From Psychromonas sp. CNPT3 (GTDB lineage Bacteria; Pseudomonadota; Gammaproteobacteria; Enterobacterales; Psychromonadaceae): 64,000 bases of DNA. A program made the position numbers and the translations under genes. Shown here in pieces: positions 15,691 to 19,979 of the stretch. The notes under the pieces are model-generated. The model did no database searches. It was not told the origin of the DNA and was given only the letters and a program-made list of their open reading frames with translations. Where the stretch lies: NCBI RefSeq assembly GCF_000153405.2, contig NC_020802.1, positions 2,809,883-2,873,882 on the forward strand, in the 5' to 3' direction. Positions within the stretch are counted from its first letter, which is position 1, and each line of letters starts with the position of its first letter.

Positions 15691-16698
15691 ATGAAACACA
15701 ATTCCCCTCTCTGCTTAATGAACAATACAAAAATATTAATAGCCATCTGCCCACTTCTGCCTTTCTTTTTACAAGCAGCTGAAAATAATACCAATAATTT
15801 TTACATTGGCGCAAAGGCTGGCTGGTCAAAATACCAAGATGCATGTCTCTATGGTTACACTAAATGTGAAGAAGATTCTTTAGGTTATGGTCTTTTTGTA
15901 GGCTATGATTTTACTGATTGGTTTGCCATTGAAGGTGGCGTAACAAATCACAATGAGGTTAATTCATCATATCAAAATTATGATGTTGAGGCATTAGCGA
16001 TTAGTAGTGATCTCTCCACTAAATTTGGTTATCGATTAACCGACAATGTACAACTGTATACAAAAGTTGGGATCTCGTATCAACATATAAATAAAACAAT
16101 GTCAGATCTAGGTGACTTTTCGGGTTCAAGCTTTGGAGGACTAGTCGCCATGGGTATTGATTACAAACTAGATAATAATTGGTCTTTACGTGGTGAGTAC
16201 CAATTTATCGATGGAATAGGAGATGACACATCATTAAAAGCTGATCTCCATTTCACCTCTGTCGGGATCAAATATAGATTTTCCAGCTCAAAACAAAAAG
16301 ACATTATCCCGATCACACAACCAAAAGAAACTGTCGTCTCTGAGATCAAAAAACAACCTAAGCTACCTAAAAATATAATACTATTTTTTGATTTCGATTC
16401 ATCAGAAATCCTGCCCACTCCACTTTTACATCAGATCACGGATCAATTAGCCAAGTTTCCCAAAATTAACATTTCTATTATTGCCCATACAGATAGTGAA
16501 GGATCCGACCTATACAATGATAAATTAGCAGCGAAACGCGCGCTCGAAGTATCGAAATATTTTTTACATAAGAATATAAATAAAAACAGGATCAACGTAT
16601 TAAGTCATGGTGAAAGACTTCCAACTCATGATAATGAAACAAAAAAAGGGAGAGCAAAAAATAGGCGTGTAGAAATTACATTCTCTCATAATGCTTAA
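15691..16698 (+). CDS. OmpA-family outer-membrane protein
   Basis: A 335-residue protein with three parts. A signal peptide ends about residue 29 (FLQAAE). An eight-strand OmpA-like barrel spans ~30-200 (NNFYIGAKAGWSKYQD, FVGYDFTDWFAIEGGV, SVGIKYRFSS). After a linker, an OmpA/MotB peptidoglycan-binding domain covers ~225-335 (ILFFDFDSSEI, IIAHTDSEGSDLYNDKLAAKRA, NRRVEITF). It ties the outer membrane to the cell wall. The barrel contains a Cys pair (DACLYGYTKCEED), unusual for OmpA barrels and perhaps a loop disulfide. Length matches the family. Confidence 0.88.
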   Translation: MKHNSPLCLMNNTKILIAICPLLPFFLQAAENNTNNFYIGAKAGWSKYQDACLYGYTKCEEDSLGYGLFVGYDFTDWFAIEGGVTNHNEVNSSYQNYDVEALAISSDLSTKFGYRLTDNVQLYTKVGISYQHINKTMSDLGDFSGSSFGGLVAMGIDYKLDNNWSLRGEYQFIDGIGDDTSLKADLHFTSVGIKYRFSSSKQKDIIPITQPKETVVSEIKKQPKLPKNIILFFDFDSSEILPTPLLHQITDQLAKFPKINISIIAHTDSEGSDLYNDKLAAKRALEVSKYFLHKNINKNRINVLSHGERLPTHDNETKKGRAKNRRVEITFSHNA

Positions 16699-16997
16699 AT
16701 TTATTTTTTGTAAAATCAGGACATAGGCATTGAGAATAAAACCGACATCCTAAACTTTTAACGGATGTGTTTATCCTCGATGCGGGCTAACTGCGGATAA
16801 AACCTCAAATAGTTCTATGTCTGTCGATTAATAGCCGCTTCATTCATTTAATAATGGTTTGACGCAAATGCATCTGATCATAGATTTTTGTTTTAATAAA
16901 GGATCTGTGATCCGCTTTTCTGGCACATTTACCTCAGGCATGTGCGCGTAACAATGTATAAATCAAGGCCTAAAACATGACTAAAAGCGCATAAAAA

Positions 16998-17187
16998 GAG
17001 AGCTAAGCTCGCTAGTCGGCTTTTAAGTATTTATGCACCTATGTGTTAAATAATCAACAAAACAATACCTGCATCTCCGTATGGCCCTCTACGTGCACAT
17101 TAAAACGTACATCAGCAGACATTTTTCCTATTGATTCATAACTCCCGGTAATATTCGTAAAAAAAGCATAAAAGAAGCATAAAAAAA
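16998..17187 (-). repeat. Decayed leading unit of the tuf-tail array
   Basis: Exactly 190 bases before the first clear unit there is another GAGAGC..AAGCTCGC hairpin. Between them the sequence still aligns loosely with a tuf tail, including TAAAACGTA and ATGGCC/ACGGCC blocks. On the minus strand it can be read as a short frame MSADVRFNVHVEGHTEM..., comparable to the EF-Tu tail [13 protein letters not shown]. Identity is low, but the preserved spacing supports common origin. The preceding 16699-16997 holds no recognisable gene. Confidence 0.55.
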
Positions 17188-18744
17188 GAGAGCCTAAGCT
17201 CGCTCAACTGTGTTTAACGATTTATGAAGTGTATTTATTCAATGATGTGATCCAACACCCGCATCGTCAGTACGGCCACCTTCACGGATAGCAAAACGTA
17301 GACCGTCATCCCTTGCGCTTATTGATGCAATCAGCCTGCAACACTCACTAAAAACACATAAAAAAGGCATAAAAAAGGCATAAAAAAGAGAGCCTAAGCT
17401 CGCTCAACTGTGTTTAACAATTTATGAAGTGTATTTATTCAATGATGAGATCCGACACCAGCACCGTCAGTACGACCACCTTCACGGATAGCAAAACGTA
17501 GACCTTCGTCCATTGCGCTTATTTGATGCAATCAGCCTGCTACACTCACTAAAAACACATAAAAAAGGCATAAAAAAGAGAGCCTAAGCTCGCTCAACTG
17601 TGTTTAACGATTTATGAAGTGTATTTATTCAATGATGAGATCCAACACCCGCATCGTCAGTACGGCCACCTTCACGGATAGCAAAACGTAGACCTTCGTC
17701 CCTTGCGCTTATTTGATGCAATCAGCCTGCTACACTCACTAAAAACTATAAAAAAGGCATAAAAAAAGAGAGCCTAAGCTCGCTCAACTGTGTTTAACAA
17801 TTTATGAAGTGTATTTATTCAATGATGTGATCCAACACCAGCACCGTCAGTACGGCCACCTTCACGGATAGCAAAACGTAGACCTTCGTCCATTGCGCTT
17901 ATTTGATGCAATCAGCCTGCTACACTCACTAAAAACTATAAAAAAGGCATAAAAAAAGAGAGCCTAAGCTCTCTTCTATCATGTGTTTAACAATTTATGA
18001 ATAGTATTTATTCAATGATTGTAGAAACAACACCAGCACCTACAGTACGGCCACCTTCACGGATAGCAAAACGTAGACCGTCATCCATTGCGCTTATTGA
18101 TGCAATCAGCCTTACACATTCATTAAAACACATAAAAACTATAAAAAAGGCATAAAAAAAGAGAGCCTAAGCTCGCTCAACTGTGTTTAACCATTTATGA
18201 AGTGTATTTATTCAATGATGTGATCCAACACCAGCACCGTCAGTACGGCCACCTTCACGGATAGCAAAACGTAGACCTTCGTCCATTGCGCTTATTTGAT
18301 GCAATCAGCCTGCTACACTCACTAAAAACTATAAAAAAGGCATAAAAAAAGAGAGCCTAAGCTCTCTTCTATCATGTGTTTAACAATTTATGAATAGTAT
18401 TTATTCAATGATTGTAGAAACAACACCAGCACCTACAGTACGGCCACCTTCACGGATAGCAAAACGTAGACCGTCATCCATTGCGCTTATTGATGCAATC
18501 AGCCTTACACATTCATTAAAACACATAAAAACTATAAAAAAGGCATAAAAAAAGAGAGCCTAAGCTCGCTCAACTGTGTTTAACCATTTATGAAGTGTAT
18601 TTATTCAATGATGAGATCCGACACCAGCACCGTCAGTACGACCATCTTCACGGATAGCAAAACGTAGACCTTCGTCCATTGCGCTTATTTGATGCAATCA
18701 GCCTGCTACACTCACTAAAAACACATAAAAAAGGCATAAAAAAA
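17188..18744 (-). repeat. Tandem array of eight tuf 3'-end/terminator units
   Basis: Counting from each GAGAGC, units start at 17188, 17388, 17578, 17768, 17958, 18161, 18351 and 18554, and the real tuf tail starts at 18745. Periods are 200, 190, 190, 190, 203, 190, 203 and 191. Every unit holds, on the minus strand, a copy of about the last 30 codons of tuf, its stop region, 3' untranslated sequence and terminator hairpin with T run. Units at 17958 and 18351 (class A) are identical to each other and match the real tuf tail base for base over 122 bases. The others (class B) are diverged but alike. No unit has a start region of tuf, so these are not whole pseudogenes. Confidence 0.95.
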
Positions 18745-18761
18745 GAGAGCCTAAGCTCTCT
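18738..18761 (-). terminator. Intrinsic terminator of tuf
   Basis: Stem GAGAGC/GCTCTC with a four-base loop (extended by one A-T pair), followed on the minus strand by seven T. The same hairpin recurs in all array units; class B units carry one mismatch in the stem. Confidence 0.92.
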
Positions 18762-18794
18762 TCTATCATGTGTTTAACAATTTATGAATAGTAT

Positions 18795-19979
18795 TTATTC
18801 AATGATTGTAGAAACAACACCAGCACCTACAGTACGGCCACCTTCACGGATAGCAAAACGTAGACCTTCATCCATTGCGATTGGAGCAATAAGCTCAACA
18901 ACGAATTTAAGGTTATCACCAGGCATTACCATTTCAACACCTTCTGGAAGCTGTACAGCACCAGTGATATCTGTTGTACGGAAGTAGAACTGTGGACGGT
19001 AACCTTTGAAGAAAGGAGTATGACGGCCGCCTTCATCTTTGCTTAGTACGTAAACTTCAGACTCAAATTTAGTATGAGGAGTGATTGAACCAGGCGCAGC
19101 AAGAACTTGACCACGTTCGATTTCTTCACGTTTAATACCACGTAGAAGAACACCAACGTTTTCGCCAGCACGACCTTCGTCAAGTAGTTTACGGAACATT
19201 TCAACACCAGTACAAGTACTTTTAGCAGTGTCTTTAAGACCAATGATTTCTACTTCATCACCAATTTTAACAATACCACGTTCAACACGACCAGTTACAA
19301 CTGTACCACGACCTGAAATTGAGAATACATCTTCAATTGGTAGGATGAATGGTTTGTCGATATCACGTTTTGGAATTGGAATGTAGTTATCAAGAGCATC
19401 AGCTAGCTCAAGAATTTTTTCTTCCCATTCAGCTTCGCCTTCAAGTGCTTTAAGAGCAGAACCTTGGATCACAGGTAAATCATCACCTGGGAAATCATAT
19501 TCGCTAAGAAGTTCACGAACTTCCATTTCTACTAACTCAAGAAGCTCTTCATCATCAACCATGTCACATTTGTTCATGAAAACAACTAAATGTGGAACAC
19601 CAACTTGACGTGCAAGTAGGATATGCTCACGAGTTTGTGGCATAGGGCCATCTGTTGCAGCAACAACTAGGATACCACCATCCATTTGTGCAGCACCAGT
19701 GATCATGTTTTTAACATAATCGGCATGTCCAGGACAATCCACGTGTGCGTAATGACGTACAGCTGTATCATATTCAACATGTGAAGTAGAGATAGTGATA
19801 CCACGTTCACGTTCTTCAGGTGCATTATCGATTGATGCGAAGTCTTTTACTTCACCGCCGAATTTTTTAGCAAGAACTGAAGTGATTGCTGCAGTTAGAG
19901 TTGTTTTACCATGATCGACGTGGCCAATAGTACCAACGTTTACATGTGGTTTATTACGTTCAAATTTTTCTTTAGACAC
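18795..19979 (-). CDS. tuf: Elongation factor Tu
   Basis: A 394-residue EF-Tu, full length. G1 is [12 protein letters not shown] (residues ~16-27), G3 is DCPGHADY (~81), G4 is NKCD (~136). Domains 2 and 3 follow, ending [18 protein letters not shown]-Tu with GTP brings aminoacyl-tRNA to the ribosome. It is the last gene of rpsL-rpsG-fusA-tuf, 73 bases after fusA. No second tuf lies upstream of secE, where many gammaproteobacteria keep tufB. The 3' end has been copied into the downstream array. Confidence 0.98.

Follow-up and report, generated by a model that had tools for sequence, protein, structure and literature searches.

The window analyzed here, a stretch of 64,000 nucleotides from the genome of Psychromonas sp. 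CNPT3 (one contig of 3.05 Mb), contains tuf, an open reading frame of 394 amino acids whose product carries the EF-Tu domains (Pfam). A whole-genome protein search finds a single full tuf in this genome, which rules out a second tuf as a donor of the sequences described below. Downstream of tuf lie eight tandem units of 190–203 nt, followed by a ninth, decayed unit, and each unit consists of a spacer, a copy of about 29 final tuf codons, the 3'UTR, and the terminator (table 1). A reading of the same DNA made from the sequence only had described eight units of this size after tuf, each holding approximately the final 30 codons of EF-Tu, the 3' untranslated part, and the terminator; both the positions and the content agree with what we find, and the array is confirmed to be real. 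With unit boundaries set at the end of the terminator stem, U1 to U8 measure 191, 203, 190, 203, 190, 190, 190, and 200 nt, respectively. Tandem Repeats Finder reports one long array at 17158–18879, either with a period of 190 and 8.8 copies (score 2555) or, as an alternative call, with a period of 393 and 4.4 copies (score 2880), and the period in its other five rows for the 64 kb is 6–20.

Table 1. Coordinates of tuf and of the repeated units behind it, counted from the first nucleotide of the window.
Feature	Coordinates	Strand	Evidence
tuf (EF-Tu), only full genomic copy, source of the repeated tail	18795..19979	-	ORF, Pfam, whole-genome protein search
U0, 3'UTR and terminator stem of tuf itself	18745..18794	-	
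U1, B type (2-nt deletion before the stop)	18554..18744	-	
U2, A type, 5' part array-type and 3' part tuf-identical; same as U4	18351..18553	-	
U3, B type	18161..18350	-	
U4, A type, identical to U2	17958..18160	-	
U5, B type, 99.5% identical to U3	17768..17957	-	
U6, B type	17578..17767	-	
U7, B type, 98.4% identical to U1	17388..17577	-	
U8, B type, of the eight units the most diverged from the rest	17188..17387	-	
U9, decayed	16985..17187	-	Exceeds 300 of 300 shuffles against U2, U5, and U8

U9 outscores all 300 dinucleotide shuffles with every one of the three units used for comparison, and past it (16700–16990) no match rises above dinucleotide shuffles. The units of the array adjoin directly, with no cargo between them. 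There is no tRNA gene within the window, and a convergent OmpA-like gene lies beyond the array at 15691–16698. The stop region of tuf falls in a predicted hairpin (18745–18806, minus strand), and similar inverted repeats, judged by eye, are present at the tuf stop of several other Psychromonas.

The eight units are of two types, a distinction that the sequence-only reading had not made. U2 and U4 (A type) have a tuf-type tail, whereas U1, U3, and U5–U8 (B type) are diverged and are marked by a 2-nt deletion ahead of the stop. Given that U2 and U4 are identical and that U3 and U5 are nearly so, a block of two units has been repeated (U2U3 and U4U5). The A-type units are themselves mosaic: they have zero mismatches to tuf over the final 122 alignment columns and array-type sequence before these, and the switch from one to the other is located inside the coding tail. 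Additionally, the spacer of U2 differs from the spacers of the B units.

An order-wide protein search is nearly blind to units with a broken frame, and for this reason each tuf tail was compared with its own downstream DNA. The Psychromonas set comprised 24 genomes, among them P. arctica (G003), P. aquimarina (G002), P. ossibalaenae (G007), P. antarctica (G001), and G005, which we take to be P. ingrahamii; 22 of these were readable, the exceptions being G018, where the tuf tail was not found, and G004, whose contig ends 12 nt past the gene. Own-tail copies at E ≤ 0.01 lie behind tuf in 14 of the 22 readable genomes (G001 and G008 have a short piece only) and are absent at this threshold from the other 8, with the contigs of G008, G015, and G020 ending <450 nt downstream of tuf. 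The number of units in related genomes ranges from none to eight, and the tuf tails viewed in the Psychromonas relatives are intact. Outside the genus, 61 tuf loci (60 genomes of the order) were compared, and five of them have clear own-tail copies; these loci come from the best-scoring rows of the order-wide protein search and are not a random sample, and two further loci with short matches are not counted. The five belong to family f16 (4 of 6 loci) and family f7 (1 of 6 loci). On the tuf tree, the presence of an array requires seven changes, at least five of which are forced by supported branches, and presence is not clustered (151 of 500 shuffles are equally low). The initial DNA search also gave two distant matches (L017 and L018), which turned out to be terminators of other genes.

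The arrays are more widespread than first thought, and they are neither unique to the window nor exclusive to tuf: the view that the array is specific to tuf does not hold given arrays behind rpmE, sucD, pnp, and a tRNA-Asp gene. Clusters at other genes came to light in a search with the tuf-terminator pattern. Own-tail copies are present behind rpmE (bL31) at 6 of 24 Psychromonas loci (G007, G002, G018, G005, G012, and G011), a count in which two matches of 19–21 nt are excluded and two loci (L244 and L249) had <250 nt readable. Three full units and a piece follow sucD in G016, and degenerate own-tail copies follow pnp in G002. In stretches sampled from three Psychromonas genomes, tandem repeats spanning only the 3' end of a gene number four in G002 (310 genes), three in G016 (304 genes; inspection covered all of these but L201), and one in the window genome (371 genes; the sample included the window, and the repeat is that of tuf). 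The corresponding numbers are 1, 0, and 2 for repeats spanning only the 5' end of a gene and 2, 6, and 4 for purely intergenic repeats. One G016 stretch had been placed to hold tuf; thus, the unbiased find in that genome is sucD only. The four 3'-end repeats of G002 copy the last codons and the stop and do not always include the terminator. In G062 (f16; 317 genes), whose sampled stretches, like those of G002, are contiguous rather than evenly spaced, there is one repeat at a 5' end, one at both kinds of end, and none at a 3' end alone, and thus we claim no general 3'-end excess for that genome. In the outgroup G135 (family f2; 316 genes), the sole gene-end repeat comprises a tRNA-Asp gene and, behind it, three degenerate copies that have terminators and a spacing of 190; arrays of this kind thus occur in the outgroup as well. 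In E. coli, 49 kb around tufA gave no repeats at gene ends.

Several other repeats were seen in these genomes. The tRNA-Asp copies of G135 (L358:16834–17549) are broken by short inserts and have intact terminators, and pattern matches suggest more such clusters with a spacing of ~190 in G135, G049, and G121. In the window genome, a tandem array (L221:13120–14072) follows a 5S rRNA gene (L221:12962–13077); in the units of this array the 3' end of 5S recurs in inverted orientation (an alignment of 29 bases with two gaps). A tRNA-Leu(TAA) gene is present twice, ~400 nt apart and with a terminator after each copy, in G005 (L183) and G012 (L184); this pair is a whole-gene duplication and not a tail array. 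The repeats next to csrA in G016 (L189) proved to be tRNA-Arg genes and those close to a gene in G006 (L197) an intergenic repeat of an unrelated kind; both were likewise discarded as tail arrays. Ten bases, GCGCTATACC, are inserted in the copied tails of two genes, namely in tuf units of several Psychromonas and in the sucD unit of G016 (L218:18440–18500). We set aside the idea that this insert is a mobile piece, keeping it only as a lead, as the insert is not enriched genome-wide: GCGCTATACCW has 69 matches in 24 genomes compared with 51 for the reversed pattern. At the 30 GCGCTATACCW loci viewed, local repeats occur only at the tuf and sucD arrays, along with an unrelated 456-nt repeat near one locus (L285).

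The relation between units and their gene was examined in 19 arrays with clear terminators at both ends (11 Psychromonas tuf, 1 sucD, 2 rpmE, 4 f16 tuf, and 1 f7 tuf), a set that leaves out G001, G008, G015, pnp, and others. Mean identity between unit and gene is 19.5% at positions -130 to -90, 46.7% at -90 to -45, 68.7% from -45 to the stop, and 89.7% in the 3'UTR and terminator. For the 10 arrays that have at least two units, units of one array are on average 69.8, 78.7, 91.5, and 91.8% identical to each other in the same four bins. A fresh plain duplication would be expected to match over its whole length, unlike this gradient from 5' to 3'. The gradient has its exceptions: the window array (40, 88, 85, and 84%) has none beyond -90, unit–gene identity does not rise in the last bin in G017 and G002, and identity between units is low in the 5' bins of G006 and of the two rpmE arrays. 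Furthermore, units are on average nearer to the tuf 3'UTR of their own species. In 11 tuf arrays, 23 units are 88.8% identical to their own tuf 3'UTR and 72.7% identical to those of other species (Wilcoxon p 6.7e-5, with units of the same array not being independent), and the tuf 3'UTRs of different species are 73.1% identical to one another (55 pairs). Among 28 units, the nearest tuf is the unit's own for 18 and not for the other 10; both G007 units and one G006 unit keep another 3'UTR.

The kind of array seen here is already known from the tyrTV operon of E. coli, contrary to the earlier statement that it has no described equivalent. In E. coli (L325), RtT is present three times behind tyrV with a spacing of 178 nt; two of these repeats start with the 19 nt that end the tRNA, and after them there is a third piece of the tail. 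In both cases the 3' end of a gene and the stretch that follows it are tandemly repeated behind that gene. rtT is described as an RNA released from a tRNA transcript (PMC4986893) and is also treated in PMC2965389. The two cases differ in that the source is a tRNA gene in E. coli and the protein gene tuf in the window, in that here there are up to eight units and arrays at several genes of one genus, and in that an RNA is described for rtT whereas the window array is known here from its DNA. Additionally, no Rfam family matches the window at 16600–19000 up to E = 1, and this includes the covariance model of rtT (RF00391, RttR), which gave four matches in a control on E. coli L325. A second comparison is with Salmonella, in which gene conversion between tufA and tufB is documented (PMC5485169). 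There too homologous exchange homogenizes tuf sequences within one chromosome, but it does so between two distant full genes, whereas here one gene is accompanied by adjacent partial copies, and units are gained and lost. In the open-access literature searched, with the P. ingrahamii genome paper covered by six repeat-related keywords, we found no description of a protein-gene source, of arrays at several genes of one genus, or of such a mosaic record.

We favor the hypothesis that the window holds a birth-and-death array of a gene 3' end that is largely neutral and has been shaped by homologous exchange, and we regard this as the probable explanation. The array looks like a by-product of misaligned recombination rather than a new device, and the hallmarks of unequal exchange are present, that is, mosaic units, block duplication, variable copy number, and concerted evolution with the gene (with the exceptions given above). 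The array would have begun with a tandem duplication of the tuf end, its 3'UTR, its terminator, and some bases beyond, a first step that the hypothesis itself leaves unexplained. Homologous recombination between the tuf tail and the downstream copies, for which RecA would be the agent, probably followed, and its outcome can be read from the units. If the tuf tail crossed over unequally with a copy, a unit with an array-type 5' part and a tuf-type 3' part would be added, a crossover between units would give repeated blocks of units, and distal units would decay; the outermost unit, U9, is indeed the decayed one. Gene conversion instead of crossing-over would give a similar pattern. Such an arrangement would be tolerated because the first copy, the gene, stays whole, and extra transcription termination may be a side benefit. 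The earlier suggestion that the unit was amplified by unequal exchange is thus in accord with the mosaic units and the repeated two-unit block, but its placement between hairpins is not supported, as the readable switch lies in the coding tail. The suggestion that the array is a bank of donors for the tuf tail finds no support: the readable flow is from tuf to the array, and the tuf tails viewed are intact, although a broken tail would hardly persist in an essential gene in any case.

Four alternatives to a largely neutral array were considered. Tandem terminators could be under selection, with each unit stopping read-through toward the OmpA-like gene from an operon that is presumably heavily transcribed, as tuf generally is. 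A dedicated hairpin scan finds a terminator-like hairpin kept in all eight units, and in G016, G006, and G002 the stem of a unit differs from that of the gene on both arms with pairing kept. The 3'UTR and terminator are also the least variable part of the B units (1 of 50 columns variable compared with 9 of 87 in the tail), which could reflect constraint as well as exchange. Nevertheless, six of the eight window units have a stem mismatch (hairpin score of 15 compared with 22 for tuf, U2, and U4), 8 of the 22 readable Psychromonas genomes lack copies, and a general terminator scan lists none of the terminators of the array, a miss that we think is due to the stem extending into the T-run. We consider selection for termination possible but unlikely. 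The proposal that the units yield a family of 3'UTR small RNAs, through processed read-through transcripts or through promoters of their own, appears improbable. The nearest known case, rtT, is described as a released RNA (PMC4986893), and for both the genuine tuf 3' end and U2 the folding is better than that of shuffled sequences (z of -2.8 and -3.5). However, the two B units that were folded, U1 and U8, have no structure beyond shuffles (z of -0.2 each), and the remaining B units, having nearly the same 3'UTR, presumably lack it as well. Moreover, a consensus scan finds no sigma-70-like promoter at 16900–18950 compared with a mean of 5.8 sites in shuffles, and Rfam offers no match. We therefore rate the neutral array first, extra termination second, and small RNAs low.

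The other two alternatives are both very improbable. If mobile elements inserted at the 3' end of tuf and restored it, an array of attachment sites would result, and the units do restore tail and terminator, as some integration sites likewise do. Unlike the attachment-site arrays of integrative elements, however, the window units abut without cargo, none of six neighboring proteins tested has an integrase or transposase domain (Pfam; one of the six has no Pfam match of any kind), and a similar arrangement is found behind several unrelated genes. As for misassembly of the window genome, near-identical repeats are hard to assemble, and the copy number for this strain comes from one assembly. Against it, the units differ from one another by indels and substitutions, and other Psychromonas assemblies have arrays with different unit sequences at the same place, which makes misassembly of the array as such unlikely.

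A broader hypothesis, which we regard as unlikely, is that tandem duplication in these bacteria favors gene 3' ends that have an intrinsic terminator, by virtue of some feature of the terminator, perhaps (A/G)TG(C/T)CTG after the T-run. On this view, a single process linked to terminators would have given rise to the tail arrays of tuf, rpmE, sucD, pnp, and tRNA genes, and the additional stop signals or RNA 3' ends would have been retained for the benefit they bring. In samples of G000, G016, G002, G135, and G062, this motif follows 14 of 745 hairpin-borne T-runs compared with 2 of 11,284 other T-runs, although some of the 14 are array copies and the count in G002 is 0 of 174. The sequence TTTTTTTRTGCCTGWA is present in 67 of 119 genomes of the order and its reversed control in none, the latter not being a fair control.

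With these arrays, the oddity of rtT behind a tRNA operon of E. coli is extended to protein genes, one of which is essential, and the many natural arrays of differing age make both exchange and decay readable. They also call for caution with short "EF-Tu C-terminal" reading frames and with 3'UTR signals that recur behind genes, as both can be the debris of recombination. If gene 3' ends are truly hotspots of duplication, transcription termination would be linked to genome change.
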